This document shows, piece after piece, positions 10,032 to 46,385 of a stretch of DNA of 64,000 nt (position 1 is the stretch's first letter; each line of letters starts with the position of its first letter). Position numbers and translations under genes: made by a program. The DNA lies in assembly GCA_021307315.1 (NCBI GenBank), contig JAJSPD010000021.1, positions 186,001 to 250,000 on the forward strand. Direction: 5' to 3'. The notes under the pieces are model-generated. The model was given only the letters and a program-made list of their open reading frames with translations, did not search any database and was not told the DNA's origin. This stretch comes from Bisporella sp. PMI_857. Taxonomy: Eukaryota > Ascomycota > Leotiomycetes > Helotiales > Helotiaceae.

Positions 10032-10059
10032 GCCTTCATGGCGCAGTGGTAACGCGTCG

Positions 10060-10108
10060 GTATGTTCTGAGCACATTTCGTAACCTATTCATTACTAACA
10101 TTATCTAG
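10060..10108 (+). other. Spliceosomal-intron-like insert within the tRNA anticodon stem
   Basis: A 49-nt insert begins GTATGT, has the branch-site-like TACTAAC near its 3' end and finishes with CTAG. Its removal restores a perfect anticodon stem. Size and signals match protein-gene introns in this window, for example the 46-nt DRS1 intron that ends CACTAACATACCTATAG. The junction is ambiguous by one base (a G at either end). Excision by the spliceosome is inferred, not shown. Confidence 0.7.
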
Positions 10109-10116
10109 CACTTGTA

Positions 10117-10140
10117 TGAGTGTTGCACCACTCTTCGTAA
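10117..10140 (+). other. Canonical tRNA intron (after position 37)
   Basis: A 24-nt insert lies one base 3' of the UGU anticodon, the standard site cut by the tRNA splicing endonuclease. It can form a hairpin, GAGTG (10118-10122) with CACTC (10129-10133), around a six-base loop. The exact ends could shift by one base. Confidence 0.75.
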
Positions 10141-10180
10141 ATGCGAAGATCCCTAGTTCAATTCTGGGTGAAGGCAATGA

Positions 10181-10186
10181 TTTTTT
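10181..10186 (+). terminator. Pol III terminator (T6)
   Basis: A run of six T residues starts five bases after the discriminator base of the tRNA gene, the usual RNA polymerase III stop signal. Confidence 0.7.
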
Positions 10187-18585: not shown

Positions 18586-21064
18586 ATGGCGGCTTCTACG
18601 AAGAGGAGAATCAATGATGATTTCATTCTCACAATCTCCGATAACGAAGAAGACCTCGAAAATGTCGAGGAAGAGGTCGCATCTCTACCTCACTCTAGCA
18701 AGAAACGCAAGCGCGAAGAAACCTCGAATGGAACCTCAAAGAAGAGCAAGAAGTCGAAAAAGAACAAACACCAGGTAGAAGAGGAGACAGAAAATGGGGA
18801 GAATGAAGGCATATGGGGCGCGAAGGAGGAAGACGATGGAGCTATGGACTCTGATTTTGAGTTTGCTCTCGAGGCGGATGGAGATAATAATGGTTTGGAA
18901 GAATTCGAAGGCTGGGGATTTGAGAGTGCTAAAAAGAGTCTCAATGGCAGCAAAGGCGACAAGAAAGCTGTCGACATTGACGAAATTATCGCGCGCCGAA
19001 GGGAGAAAAAGAATGGTAGAAAACCTGTGGATGCAGACGCAGAAGGAGCTAAAGTAGAGGAGGAGAAGGAAGCAGACAGTGACTCAGACAGGGGATCAGA
19101 AGTTCAAGATGAGGATTTGGAAGAAATAGACCTCGAAAATGCTGAGGACGAATTCTTAGCTGAAGATGGTTTCGGAATGGGTGTGGGCTCAGATGAGGAA
19201 GAATCTGGGAAAGAAGATATCATCGAAGAATCGGATAACGAAGAGAATGAAGCGGAAGAGGGAGAGTCAGACGAAGATTCTGTTGCTTCAGCTGTTCCAC
19301 ATCCGGATGATCTGGACTCAGACGCATCCTCAGACGAAGGAGAGAAGGATGATCCAGAGGAAGCTGCTCGTAGAGAAGCATTCTTTGCTCCAGAAGAGAA
19401 GCCCGCAAAAGGATCAAAGCCATCAATTTCGTCGACATTTCAGACCATGTCATTGTCACGACCTATTCTACGAGGCCTTTCGGCTGTCGGTTTCACTCAA
19501 CCTACACCAATTCAGGCAAAGACAATCCCTGTTGCTTTGCTTGGTAAGGATGTGGTTGGAGGAGCAGTCACTGGTTCAGGTAAAACCGCCGCGTTTATTG
19601 TTCCAGTTCTGGAACGTCTGCTTTATCGCCCAAAGAAGGTACCTACCAGTAGAGTTGTTATCCTTATGCCCACTCGTGAATTGGCTATCCAATGTCATGC
19701 GGTAGCTACAAAGCTGGCAAGCCATACAGATATCAAATTTTGTTTAGCAGTCGGAGGTCTCAGTCTCAAGGTGCAAGAAGCAGAGTTGAGACTTCGCCCA
19801 GATGTGATTATCGCTACTCCTGGACGTTTCATCGATCATATGCGCAATTCTCCAAGCTTTACAGTGGATACGCTTGAAATTCTTGTGCTAGATGAGGCTG
19901 ATAGGATGCTTGAAGCTGGTTTTGCTGACGAATTGAATGAGATTCTCACCACTATTCCGAAGTCGAGACAAACTATGTTGTTCTCTGCGACCATGACTTC
20001 ATCTGTAGATACCCTAATTCGAGTTGGTCTCAATAGGCCAGTCCGACTAATGGTTGATTCTCAGAAGCAGACCGTAGGAACATTAGTGCAAGAGTTCATC
20101 CGCCTACGGCCCGGAAGAGAGAAGAAGCGAATGGGATATCTTTTGAATTTATGTTCCAATGTCTACACTGATCGAGTAATTGTCTTCTTCCGACAAAAGA
20201 AGGAGGCACATAGAGCGCGAATCATCTTTGGTCTCTCTGGTCTCAAAGCTACCGAGTTACACGGTAGCATGAGCCAAGAACAGGTAAGACAGCTTCCTGT
20301 ACTGAATCGCAGCACTAACATACCTATAGCGTATTGCAAGCATGGAAGCATTCCGCGATGGGAAAGCTTCCTTTCTCCTTGCCACGGATCTGGCATCCCG
20401 TGGTCTTGATATAAAAGGCGTTGACACAGTAATAAACTACGAAGCCCCGCAATCTCACGAGATCTACCTCCACAGAGTCGGTCGTACCGCAAGAGCAGGG
20501 CGTAACGGACGAGCCTGCACCCTAGCCGCGGAACCTGACCGCAAGATTGTAAAGGCAGCCGTAAAGAGCGGACGCGCACAGGGGGCAAAAATAGTGTCTC
20601 GTGTCGTGGAAGCTGCGGAGGCGGATGTGTGGGCTGAAAAAGTAGATGAGATGGAAGAGGAGATTGAGGAAATTCTCAAGGATGAAAAGGAAGAGAAGGT
20701 ATTGCAGCAGGCGGAGATGGAACTCAGGAAGGGGGAGAATTTCGTCAATCACGAGGATGAGATAAAGGGTAGACCTAAAAGGACGTGGTTCGAGAGCGAG
20801 GCTGAGAAGAGGGCTGCGAAGAAGACTGGGAGGGCGGAGTTGAATGGTGTGGAGAGTATACTGAAAAAGAAGCCTGGGAAATTGAGTAACAAGGATAAAA
20901 AGAAACTTAATGATAGAGACCTGAGGAGTGATGGAAAGGTGTGGAAGAAGGGACGCGCGGAGAGGGATGGTAAAGGTGCGCTAGAGAAGGGAAAGAAGAA
21001 GGTCAAGGGAGGTAAACCTGCAAAGACTGGTGCGAGGCCAAGCAAGTTTGGGAAGAAAAGATAG
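18586..21064 (+). CDS. drs1: DRS1-type DEAD-box RNA helicase (60S ribosome assembly)
   Basis: ATP-dependent RNA helicase of the Drs1/DDX27 group, acting in nucleolar 27S pre-rRNA processing and 60S assembly (family knowledge). Two exons (18586-20283 and 20330-21064; 46-nt intron) give 810 aa. An acidic N-terminus of about 280 residues precedes the helicase core: Q motif GFTQPTPIQ (about 300), Walker A TGSGKT (about 329), PTRELA, TPGR, DEAD in VLDEADRML (about 435), SAT (about 466), then across the splice [11 protein letters not shown] and [14 protein letters not shown] (about 613). The C-terminus is Lys-rich with a coiled-coil-like Glu/Lys stretch typical of Drs1. Reading through the intron would truncate the helicase at 607 aa without motif VI, so the splice is required. 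Confidence 0.95.
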
Positions 21065-41730: not shown

Positions 41731-44700
41731 TCAAATGATAGTAATAGTCTGCTTGTCCCAGAGGTCGTAATCTCTATCCGCAGGGAATGTCCAGAATATC
41801 CCAACTCTTGAATATGTATCAGGCGATTGGGACCGAATTTTTCTTAACAATAGTCCGCAACCGGGAAAAATTTGCAAGCAGAAGACTTCTATAAAATATC
41901 GCTTCTTATGTTTTGAGTCGTGTGTAAGCGGAAGTGGATAATCCAGGGCATCCCAGCGTGCTGACGCAAAAGACCTGAGAGTATTGCTCTCCAGCAAATC
42001 GTTGGCATATGGTTGTGTAAAGACCGCCTTGCTTAGGGGTCCTTTCATAATTAGACTCCCGCCAAGTACACCTCCATATGGAGAGATCTTTGAGACTGGT
42101 GTTATTTCACAATGTAGAATATCGATAGAACTTTCGGCGTCATTGTAACCAACTGCTTCCGACCAACTGACTGCGCCGTTAACCGAAGCCCATGACCAAC
42201 TTGGAGCCGGGTATTCAGAAGGACGAGGGACTGGGATTGTAGAGAAGTCTCGGCACCACAAGAGATCATACACTAATTCCTCCCTCCATAGGCCTGCGAT
42301 ATATGACAAGCCATCATTAACACCGATTCTTGCCGCTATACCTGCTATTGCTATCAATTTATCCCGTTCAAGAGTCAAATGCAGTTTTGAATATACGCGC
42401 ACAATCTGCCGCCATATATCCTGGGACCTGGAAACTACGAGGCCATCATTATCATCGCAGTCCGTCCTCTTCCGAACTTTCATGTCGACAGATTTATGAT
42501 CCATTGACTCCCGCAACATGCTGACAGCATCTGTGGCGCAATTTCTATATCTACATTCCCAAAACATATTTGTAGATGAATAATGGAGCACACGAGGTGA
42601 CAGTAAACGTTCTTGGAATACCCACGCTCGAGAATACAAAGGCGAGTTAAGAAGCATAGTCGATGCTGTGTTGTTGATAAGAGGCTTGAAAGCGCCGTAG
42701 TTCTCATGACATGTTGTACAACCTGGGGTTATATTGCGTTCTTTCAGACTCAAAACGTCCAGATCACAATTAGAAACTTGCTCAGTGGTACTTGTAACAC
42801 ATATGGTGAGGGTGCTATTGGAATAAACTTGGTTCATCGTGGCTGACTCGTATAACCAGTCCTCGTTTGAGTCCTGTATAATGCAAAGAGAGTCAATCCA
42901 CAAGTAAGAGTATCCTAGCAGGCGCGTGATCATGACTGCATCTCTGAAAGTTCTCGAAAGCGAAGACGTATGGATCCCGATAGACATCATTTCTGCCAAG
43001 GATTCTTTTGTTGTCCTTGGGACAGATTCCACTCCCCAACAATGGCTGAGGGTGAGATAGGAAGATGTGAACTTTGATTTTCTAGCTTGCAGATGTATAT
43101 AATCTCCATCCGCAGGAATCGCCAAAATCCGAGTTGGAAAGAAGTTGGAAGCCGAGTATGCAGAGTGATCGTGATATTGCAAGCAGTCATCCAGCCAGAG
43201 TGATGCAATTTTTATTAGCTCAATAGCTGTCCTTTCTCCGGTAGCAGCCAAGAAGTAATCTGTGTCTCTCTGTAACTTAGTTTCAATGATTTCATGTTGC
43301 TGGCACAATATTTGAATTCTCCGAGCTGAAGGCCGATTCTCCATATTGATGCTCATCATGTCCCCAATAAGCTGAAACTCTTTCTGAATTCCTAGACCAA
43401 AACTACTACTGATGTCTTGCAATTTATCGATCCAAATCAGGGATTTTTCTATGTTCACATAGTATGCTCCACTTTTCATGTTGAAAGACCGGAAGTCGTT
43501 AAAGACCTGCAAAGAAACTCCATGAATGGTGGTGGCCATTTCCAAAAAGATACACCCGAGGGAGAATATATCACTGGCTGATGTCGCAAGCTTTGAACCG
43601 ACCTGACCTAGAATTTCTGGGGCGCAATACATGGGTGTAACCACCAAATCCGTTTCCTTGGAAGTCAGCTCATGGCTAGCTGTAATCTGTTGTACACTGC
43701 CAAAGTCCGATATTAATACCCGGTTGTCGACAATGAGGATATTCGCGGGCTTTAGATCTAAATGACAGTAAGATGCTGCATGTATATAGGCCACCGCAGA
43801 TGTTAGACAACCCCACCAAACTGATATGAGAGATCTTGCTTCAGCAGACCTCCATTGATCACTGTGCATGAATTCAGATAGGTTGTAATTCGCCACAGGA
43901 TATATGATAAAGGAGAACTGATCCTGAGACTGCAGGGAGGCTACAACTTTGACAATATGTTCATGCTTCAGTTTCCTCAAGGCAATCAGTTCTTTCTGAG
44001 CCTTATCAACAGTGAGAAAGGAGCTGGACGGTCGTATTTGAATTGCTTTCCTTGCGAAGTGCTTTCTAGTGAGCGTGTGTTCAACTTCGTCGACAATACC
44101 GAAAGATCCATAACCGAGTTTCCGAACAAATCTAAATGTTTCAGATTGTTGATGATGCACATGTTTCAGGACCTGCCCTGATGACTGTGAGTCCAGATCG
44201 TCAAAACTGGGACCCCTTCTGATCTGAATCTGGCTCAAGGCCTGAGCTGTTCGCCCCCTGCGTTTTGCTCCGTTGCATTTTGAAGTATCATTTCTACCGC
44301 TCTCACCTGAGAAATCTGTTGAAGATTTCCTATGATCCTCCAAATTACTCTCATCACCACCCAAAGCACTGTCACCATTGTCTCCTTCTTTGTTGTGTAT
44401 GTTATCGTCATCATTATCATCGTCGTCATCGTTGCCGCCATTATCAGAATCGTTATCAGAATTTTGGCCAACATCGCCACCCCATGGATCTCTCCAATCT
44501 GGTACCATTCTCTTTCCTTCCAAAAAGTGGTCCCCAATGTGACGGCATCGCGTGTCCCAATGGGAGAATGTCGCACCGCAAAATCCACACTGTCTCTTCC
44601 AGGCCGAAGAAACACCATGATGCCAGCCATCTATCGTCACCTGACATTCATGCGTACCGCTGATATGTTCCAATAGTTTGTCTTTGCGGGCAAATCTGTG

Positions 44701-46385
44701 ACCTTGACGGAATCGATCTGCGATACAAGATTGGTGATTCGCCGAATTGATGCCTCTTCTGCAGACGGAACAAATTGCGCTCATGCCTGTCCCTTCAACT
44801 AAACAGCCCCATTCTTTTGTAGGCCAATGAACCTCTTCATGCCTTTTCCAGTCGGTGTAATTTTTGGACAGCAAAAGACAATAAGACCCATCTTCTTTGA
44901 TAAATGTGCACTCGTGAAATCTAGAATTCCTCCGTGATCGAGCACTAGTCCTCAGTTTCTTCCTGGGTCTTGTATAATCGTTATCAGTATTGATCTTGGA
45001 CTGATAAGCAGAATCATTAGTATTGCATTGAGGAGTGCTGTAGGGTTGCATTGCCAAAAACCATTGGGTAATATAATCTGGTGGCAGTTGATGTCGGCTA
45101 GCCTCTTCTGAGAGTTGTTTCAGGACTGGTTCCATTCGCTTATTCATATTGATGAGCGAATCAAGTTTATCAGAATCAATACTAAGGAGACTGGCCAGGT
45201 TTTGCTTGTGATCAGCGCTCATGTGTGAGTTCCGCCGTAGCTCTAAGTTTATATAATTCTGTGCCCGGATGAAATCATCGCACTCCATGGAGATCGACCC
45301 TGGAAGATTTGGATTTCCGATTAGGTGGGATCTTGAACTACGGCCTCTTTTGTTGCCACGAAGACCTTGGGCGGGATCAGGACGATGAGATCTATAACCT
45401 GACGTTGTCGGAGAATAATAGTCTAAGTGAGCTTGCGAATCGCGATCATAGATCGGAGGACAGGGCGTTCGCTCTGAAAAATTCGCAGTAGTGACTGAGT
45501 TATTCTGATTGCCTAAAAAGTTCAGATAACTTGGCTGAGAGGAAGTAGTGGCGAAACTCGAGTTTATATCATGAGAAGTATAAATTGGCTGCGAAGTGCC
45601 ACAGCTAAAATTACGAAATGGGAGGCTAGACGCGACCTGGGACGTGCCAAAAGTTGTGTTTGCCGGGGGATCAAGATTTGGTGATCCGCAAATTGAATCG
45701 TAAGTATATTGTGTATTCGGTCTGGTCAAAACCTCACTCTGTTCTGTGTGCCTCGACACTCCCGAAGACAACGGCAATGAGTTTCCCAGCCTGCCGGTAT
45801 TGATCAGAACAGAATTATCGCAGGATGAGCAATGGCATGTATATTCTGATCCGGCTCCTGAACCGGCAAGACAGAAATTAAAATTCTCTTGAGAATTATC
45901 AGCATTTGTACAACCATCTATAGGGGGCTTATATACCCTGCCGTCTGGTATATAACGAAGAATTGTGCTCTAATCCAACGCTCCAACCATAAACTGACTA
46001 TAGCAATGGTTAACTTCGAATCTTTCAAGAAGTCATCATTGTGGCTTTCATTCCTACCACCTGGCCCTCAAGCCCTCTCAGAATTTAGGAGCCTACGTAC
46101 TGGATGTGTGTCAAAATTATTGCTGGAATAATGTAAGTCTGTCTGAGAACTACTCGGTTGTTGGAATCCTTGCGAACGATGTTTACGGGTTTCATTATCA
46201 AGCATAGTATGGGAGAATGTGGTACAATCTAAGGCAGTGTCATCATAAATAGAGTCTGGCGGAACCACGGAGCTATCAAGGCTGGAAGGCTGCAGGAGGC
46301 ATCCAGTGTCAGAGTTGCGGATCATATCCCGAGATTGTGGTATCAATGTCAAACCATCTGACAAGCCAGGTGCAGTATTAGACAT
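41731..46385 (-). CDS. C2H2-like zinc finger - protein kinase - HET domain fusion protein
   Basis: Two exons (complement of 46101-46385 and 41731-45969; 132-nt intron, donor GTACGT) give 1,507 aa. The long exon has no in-frame ATG upstream of its conserved part, which is why a first exon is inferred; the intron ends keep phase exactly. Layout: disordered N-terminus (1-400); C2H2-like fingers (about 440-580, best CGFCGATFSHWDTRCRHIGDH); acidic Asp/Asn tract (about 600); Ser/Thr-kinase domain (about 705-960) with glycine loop LGYGSFGIVDEV, Lys in ARKAIQ, catalytic HLDLKPAN (HLD instead of HRD), DFG and APE; then a HET domain (about 1065-1220) with LSHCWG, LWIDSLCIIQD and an AWVFQERLLSPRVLHY block, ending near an APSWSWASV motif. 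HET domains trigger heterokaryon incompatibility cell death. The kinase may gate the HET domain, which is inference. Confidence 0.88.

Follow-up and report, generated by a model that had tools for sequence, protein, structure and literature searches.

A 49-nt insert in the tRNA-Thr(UGU) gene of the window (the whole 64-kb stretch of DNA that was analysed) is best read as a spliceosomal intron, one of nine such inserts spread over eight of the genome's tRNA genes, and the maturation of this tRNA would need the spliceosome and then the tRNA endonuclease (TSEN); we give this reading a probability of about 0.88. A spliceosomal intron had been proposed by the sequence-only reading for the window gene, and the proposal is supported by eight more inserts of the same grammar in seven other tRNA genes, by the borders that an unbroken Lys paralogue sets, and, as a weak test, by the absence of a full bulge-helix-bulge at any insert. 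In total, nine GT-AG inserts are found in two Thr(UGU) genes, one gene each for Lys(UUU), Arg(UCU), Val(UAC) and His(GUG), and two Ala(CGC) genes. The feature is therefore recurrent across the genome, beyond the single gene of that earlier view, and from the sequences we infer splicing of all nine.

The tRNA-Thr(UGU) gene lies at 10032-10176 on the plus strand, with sequence and coordinates confirmed as first given. Its first exon (10032-10059) holds tRNA positions 1-29, that is, the 5′ strand of the acceptor stem, the D arm and the first three bases of the anticodon stem, and includes an A-box-like element, TGGCGCAGTGG (10039-10049), which from its motif we take to be part of the internal Pol III promoter. 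The 49-nt spliceosomal-type intron (10060-10108) comes next and interrupts the anticodon stem between positions 29 and 30, and its removal restores the tRNA. It begins with a predicted 5′ splice site GTATGT (10060-10065), shared with the second Thr(UGU) copy described below, carries the branch-site motif TACTAAC (10093-10099) with the A 10 nt from the insert 3′ end, and ends in a predicted 3′ splice site TAG (10106-10108). An 8-nt stretch (10109-10116; positions 30-37, anticodon TGT at 10113-10115), the same in the second copy, separates it from a 24-nt ordinary intron of the tRNA-endonuclease type (10117-10140), which sits at 37/38 of an otherwise complete tRNA and measures 29 nt in the second copy. 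The last exon (10141-10176; positions 38-73) supplies the 3′ strand of the anticodon stem, the T arm and the 3′ strand of the acceptor stem, and contains what is presumably, by its motif, a B-box-like element, GTTCAATTC (10156-10164). A T6 run at 10181-10186, also on the plus strand, is a likely Pol III terminator.

The earlier claim that two removals leave a complete tRNA is borne out. Excision of 10060-10108 and 10117-10140 gives a 72-nt product that ARAGORN calls as tRNA-Thr(tgt), with fully paired acceptor (7/7), T (5/5) and anticodon stems (TCGCA/TGCGA, 5/5). When only the 49-nt insert is taken out, the fixed-position intron option of ARAGORN returns Thr(tgt) with a 24-nt intron at 37/38, and the remaining options return His(atg) or Stop(tta). 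If the 49-nt insert stays in, ARAGORN returns His(atg), Gln(ctg), Val(aac), Arg(tct) or no tRNA, and Thr is obtained under no setting. Two registers of the insert lead to the identical spliced product, and GT...AG is one of them. An Rfam scan of the 64-kb window gave nothing above thresholds.

A second Thr(UGU) gene was found on contig C46, the sole other place in the genome (55.6 Mb, 284 contigs) matched by the spliced tRNA, and it was located by exon similarity, with no use of splice motifs. It carries inserts at both sites occupied in the window gene: one of 53 nt at 29/30 (GTATGT...CTCTAAC...CAG) and one of 29 nt at 37/38. The two genes differ at four exon bases, all in the acceptor stem, which make up two compensatory pairs (T5-A68 to C5-G68 and C6-G67 to G6-C67); accordingly, 2 of the 28 bases of exon 1 and 2 of the 36 bases of the last exon differ, each within a compensated pair. 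The interiors of the two larger inserts have diverged, and the copies are taken as old paralogues because their flanks are unlike by eye in the alignment. We take both paralogues to have kept the insert and its signals while the insert interior drifted.

In both Thr precursors lacking the larger insert, the lowest-energy fold is not the cloverleaf (-37.0 versus -29.7 kcal/mol for the window gene, -39.3 versus -33.6 kcal/mol for the C46 gene). The 3′ end of the 37/38 intron (CTTCGTA in one gene, CTTCGCA in the other) can form about 7 bp with the anticodon stem's 3′ strand; this pairing rivals the true 5′ strand and appears in the lowest-energy folds (window region 10109-10156 and locus L010).

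The other UGU tRNA-Thr gene is thus insert-bearing too, and an intact one was found in none of the searches made for it. A DNA search of the genome with the spliced tRNA found no intact gene. An intronless Thr(UGU) pattern gave 26 matches (63 in the control), none of which ARAGORN calls as a tRNA. A pattern allowing the 37/38 intron only gave 29 matches (35 in the control); 12 of these were left out as incomplete or repeated, and among the 17 checked none has a 5/5 anticodon stem and two have 4/5. A piece of the Thr exon scanned against collections of viral contigs and of genome contigs found no match.

Six further genes carry inserts of this kind, at positions numbered by hand following the tRNA convention. 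The Lys(UUU) gene on contig C213, which started as a partial RF00005 match, has a 54-nt insert (GTAAGA...TCTAAC...CAG) at 9/10, and with the insert removed it equals an unbroken Lys(UUU) paralogue (L054) across the entire tRNA; the insert contains a T5 run that could stop Pol III. The Arg(UCU) gene on C241 has a 53-nt insert at 21/22 and a matching copy on C263. These two contigs also share several identical pattern matches in reverse order, and by eye the Arg(UCU) locus is alike on both, a likeness that could reflect either uncollapsed haplotypes or a recent large duplication. One Ala(CGC) gene (Ala1, on C2) has a 54-nt insert at 21/22, and the other (Ala2, on C217) has a 52-nt insert at 20/21 together with a 20-nt 37/38 intron. 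The Val(UAC) gene on C167 combines a 53-nt insert at 10/11 with a 21-nt 37/38 intron set by hand. The His(GUG) gene on C35 has three introns: 52 nt at 19/20, 20 nt at 37/38 (set by hand) and 56 nt (GTATGT...TAG) at 64/65. With all three removed, ARAGORN calls His(gtg), and the acceptor stem pairs 7/7 (GTCGGGA/TCCCGAC); with the 37/38 intron kept, the call becomes Thr(tgt). Compared with an unbroken His gene (L069), it shows a compensatory change from T7-A66 to A7-T66. An ordinary 37/38 intron is thus also present in five of the eight genes (both Thr, Ala2, Val and His).

When fully spliced, all eight genes are called by ARAGORN with the right anticodon; when the 37/38 introns are removed and the GT-AG inserts kept, none is. 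The raw Ala2 locus is nonetheless called as Ala(cgc), although the intron assigned (57 nt) is wrong and the product is 85 bases long. Against the Rfam tRNA family, two of the eight raw loci give no match, one scores 26.8 bits (cut-off 29) and five score 30.1-41.3, compared with 58.9 for the unbroken Lys paralogue.

The nine inserts share a common grammar. They are 49-56 nt long; between one and three registers of each yield the same product, and one of these is GT...AG. Eight begin with GTAAGT, GTAAGA or GTATGT, and the first His insert begins with GTTGGT. The branch-site-like motif is CTAAC in eight and TTAAT in the second His insert, and its A lies 10-12 nt from the 3′ end in all nine. The borders of the Lys insert and of the first His insert are fixed by the unbroken paralogue, and those of the Thr, Val and second His inserts by paired stems. 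For the D-loop inserts ARAGORN alone leaves the borders loose (for Arg, Arg(tct) results whether 49, 53 or 56 nt are taken out, and several Ala1 removals give some call), and the borders were chosen so that the D arm of Arg(UCU) equals that of Arg(CCU) (L070) and the D arms of the two Ala genes equal each other. The inserts show three sequence features expected of a U2-type intron, namely exon-fixed GT...AG borders, a host-like 5′ splice site (in eight of nine) and a placed branch-site motif, six of the inserts having been selected by motif.

As a yardstick outside the tRNA genes we used the intron of a DRS1-like helicase gene in the window (20284-20329, plus strand; 46 nt, GTAAGA...CACTAAC...TAG), whose removal joins both helicase halves in frame (motifs by eye). 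The sequence-only reading had likened the Thr insert to this mRNA intron, and with the intron checked by in-frame joining the comparison holds: the inserts resemble it in length, 5′ splice site, CTAAC and branch-to-3′ distance. Further candidate mRNA introns measure 46-76 nt. They differ from it in their host, a tRNA gene with Pol III signals, and in the Lys gene only 9 nt of tRNA (plus leader) precede the insert. Elsewhere in the window, on the minus strand at 41731-45288, an open frame of 1185 aa encodes a protein kinase domain and, after it, a HET (heterokaryon incompatibility) domain. Among named relatives, the proteins nearest to one window protein come from Helotiales-type fungi such as Cudoniella acicularis (59% identity), with unnamed proteins reaching 68%, and the host is probably a member of the Leotiomycetes.

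The inserts fall at seven places (9/10, 10/11, 19/20, 20/21, 21/22, 29/30 and 64/65), and none of the nine is at 37/38. This scatter of places suggests several separate intron gains by tRNA genes. No shared insert family is evident, since z rises above 2 for only 3 of the 36 pairs of interiors (Lys-Val 3.8, Thr1-Thr2 2.3, Lys-His2 2.1) and the Ala pair stands at 0.1; a common origin as introner-like copies was rejected on these values. Self-splicing group I or group II introns were likewise rejected: Rfam has no match above threshold in the window, at the insert loci it finds nothing but tRNA and two weak matches below threshold, and the inserts are 49-56 nt long.

Among the other explanations, the inserts could be tRNA-endonuclease introns at ectopic places, with TSEN cutting them at bulge-helix-bulge sites as it does in the red alga Cyanidioschyzon merolae, where, in the account given in parts of PMC9602550, tRNA-Ile(UAU) has several introns in the D, anticodon and T arms with hBHBh′ motifs. 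The ordinary 37/38 intron in five of the eight genes here is in keeping with such an origin. Whichever of the equivalent registers is taken, however, none of the nine inserts has all four central-helix pairs (4/4), and a TSEN substrate leaves unexplained why GT, a branch motif and AG recur at near-constant spacing in all nine. A bulge-helix-bulge at the insert ends had been named as the sign that would speak against the spliceosome, and the full motif is found in 0/9, although this is a weak test because the two Thr 37/38 introns also miss the strict motif. With 0/9 inserts at 37/38 and 0/9 with the full motif (a weak test, as said), the TSEN-type class was rejected for the 49-56-nt inserts, and we consider this origin very unlikely.

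Acceptor stems are paired in all eight genes, 7/7 in seven of them and, in Lys, by drawing of the cloverleaf; a fixed-offset count gives Lys 3/7 for the acceptor and 3/5 for the T stem, being one base too long, and gives Arg 3/5 for the T stem, owing to its six-nt T loop. In Val and His an outer anticodon-stem pair is mismatched (by eye). Both Ala genes retain G3.U70. Runs of T4 or longer lie downstream of all eight genes, and A and B boxes can be read by eye, the A box being cut by the Lys and Val inserts. A cloverleaf after removal, promoter boxes and a terminator, the attributes of a functional nuclear tRNA gene, thus appear to be in place, and the compensated acceptor pairs of Thr and His, the G3.U70 pairs and the paired acceptors may be read as signs of selection. 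Speaking against function are the short T loop of Arg, the mismatched pairs in Val and His, the T5 run within the Lys insert, the interrupted A boxes of Lys and Val, and the Thr precursors' lowest-energy folds, which are not cloverleaves.

These observations weigh on the alternative that we are looking at dying tRNA genes with insertions that are never removed, their work in the cell being done by other, intact genes. For Lys(UUU) and His(GUG) such intact genes do exist in the genome, and the tRNA inventory is partial: it comprises at least 49 RF00005 matches, with 63 of 2170 first-look candidates scored. Single-sequence searches, moreover, miss diverged copies, as a search with Ala1 failed to find Ala2. 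Against this, the stem changes in Thr and His are compensatory, both Ala genes keep their G3.U70, and the acceptors are paired in 8/8. Thr(UGU), Arg(UCU), Ala(CGC) and Val(UAC) are all absent among the 47 RF00005 loci called by ARAGORN, and further searches found no intact Thr(UGU) and, for Arg(UCU), only the insert-bearing gene. AGA, which Arg(UCU) reads, is the commonest Arg codon (101 of 439) in seven open frames of the window, and random insertions would not have splice signals in common. We therefore regard gene decay as very unlikely, and the cell likely depends on the insert-bearing genes; we rate this dependence no higher than likely because the inventory is partial (63/2170), the Ala1 search missed Ala2, and the isoacceptor-specific searches covered Thr(UGU), Arg(UCU) and Ala(CGC).

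Two other tRNA-like loci were seen along the way. At locus L118 (G000:C230:973900-974600, minus strand), a tRNA-Gly(UCC)-like sequence has a D-arm segment, TGGTCTAATGGT, twice in tandem, 11 nt apart, and dropping one TGGTCTAATGGT unit leaves a complete tRNA by eye; this has the look of a small duplication that spans the A box and not of a GT-AG insert. A Glu(UUC)-like tRNA with a 37/38 intron was noticed by eye among the pattern matches at G000:C243:230083-230161, and the RF00005 list is incomplete because this gene is absent from it.

How the inserts were found matters for how their motifs are read. The second Thr gene was located via exon similarity and the second His insert via a hunt for the missing acceptor strand, and the inserts of Arg, Ala1, Ala2 and Val and the first of His were found through CTAAC...YAG patterns. 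The pattern CTAACN{2,18}YAGN{18,48}GTTCRANYC gave 56 matches versus 129 in a reversed control, a variant with N{49,79} gave 71 versus 138, a further pattern 61 versus 120, and the GTATGT form 16 versus 9. A pattern match alone has no meaning, since the reversed controls mostly give more matches, and most of the other matches, judged from the printed letters, are mostly chance, as the controls indicate. More insert-bearing tRNA genes may exist because the patterns demand both CTAAC and a T loop of the form GTTCRANYC. ARAGORN calls no tRNA at seven other TTCTAA loci, and C208:494237, Pro-like at first look, yields no tRNA. In 2395 trial removals of GT...CTRAY...YAG at 117 loci, a new tRNA call across the joint appeared only in the two Thr genes and Lys; in the Thr genes the anticodons were wrong since the 37/38 intron remained, and adjacent GT starts also yielded calls.

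CTAAC and YAG are therefore not independent evidence for six inserts, five being found by pattern and Lys coming from a motif-bound trial, and what is independent of the selection is the GT starts of the five pattern-found inserts, the spliced products and the Lys paralogue. That the likeness to mRNA introns is due to chance, aided by searching for it, is hardly credible even with six inserts selected in this way: the second Thr insert, found by exon similarity, displays every element of the grammar, the paralogue fixes the Lys borders, shuffles (n = 20,000) give GT..AG with a placed CTAAC at a fraction of only 0.0001 for the second Thr insert and 0.0002 for the Lys insert, and all five pattern-found inserts begin with GT though the pattern has no GT.

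Inserts of this kind have relatives and contrasts among known systems. The U6 snRNA genes of some fungi besides fission yeast also have an mRNA-type intron. The Schizosaccharomyces pombe U6 intron is described in parts of PMC10484740, citing Tani and Ohshima 1989, 1991, and is the nearest precedent, being a spliceosomal intron within a fungal Pol III transcript, as is predicted here. U6, however, is itself part of the spliceosome, and its intron lies near the catalytic bases and is believed to derive from reverse splicing, whereas here seven different positions in six kinds of tRNA carry inserts. A U6 intron as a local precedent was rejected: five U6 matches occur in this genome, each spanning the whole family length.

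Ordinary TSEN introns have counterparts in the same genes, namely the 24- and 29-nt introns of Thr and the 20-21-nt introns of Ala2, Val and His, all at 37/38. The nine GT-AG inserts, in contrast, lie away from 37/38 and break the D, anticodon or T arms, which are the parts that TSEN measures from. Like the multi-intron tRNAs of archaea and C. merolae, as treated in parts of PMC4090602 and PMC9602550, these genes can hold several introns, outside 37/38; unlike them, they lack a full bulge-helix-bulge and have splice-site and branch-site signals instead. The main text of the review PMC4090602 contains no word starting with "spliceosom", the available parts of PMC6461891 do not mention spliceosomal introns in tRNA, and those of PMC11782384 name nuclear tRNA genes with archaeal-type introns. 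No report of spliceosomal introns in tRNA genes came up in our searches of the open-licence PMC literature.

For the window Thr gene we propose that Pol III would transcribe the entire gene, inserts included, and that the nuclear spliceosome would excise the 49-nt insert as a lariat, rebuilding the 5′ strand of the anticodon stem. TSEN would then cut at 37/38, which would be possible only after the spliceosome step, and ligation would come last. The spliceosome is placed first because the insert interrupts the anticodon stem, which TSEN uses as the reference for its cuts; in yeast, TSEN measures cut sites from the folded tRNA body and anticodon stem. The budding-yeast enzyme sits at mitochondria, and an order from nuclear spliceosome to TSEN would be the natural one in space too.

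Taken together, these results suggest that the nuclear tRNA genes of this lineage have probably been invaded by spliceosomal introns, with several isoacceptors made only via the spliceosome and some also needing the tRNA endonuclease. Within the scope of our searches Thr(UGU), Arg(UCU), Ala(CGC) and Val(UAC) have no intact copy, and under the same reading the three-intron His gene would need both enzymes. Nuclear tRNA introns are taught as a class cut by protein enzymes alone, at one fixed place. If the reading is true, two splicing systems meet in one RNA, and the spliceosome would be able to act on Pol III transcripts that are short, have no cap and begin with a first exon of very few bases (for Lys and Val, 9-10 nt of tRNA together with the leader). 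The inserts would be a fresh case of intron gain outside mRNA, and tRNA annotation centred on 37/38 would overlook or miscall such genes, as the low Rfam scores of the raw loci illustrate. Translation capacity, including the decoding of the affected codons, would be tied directly to spliceosome activity.
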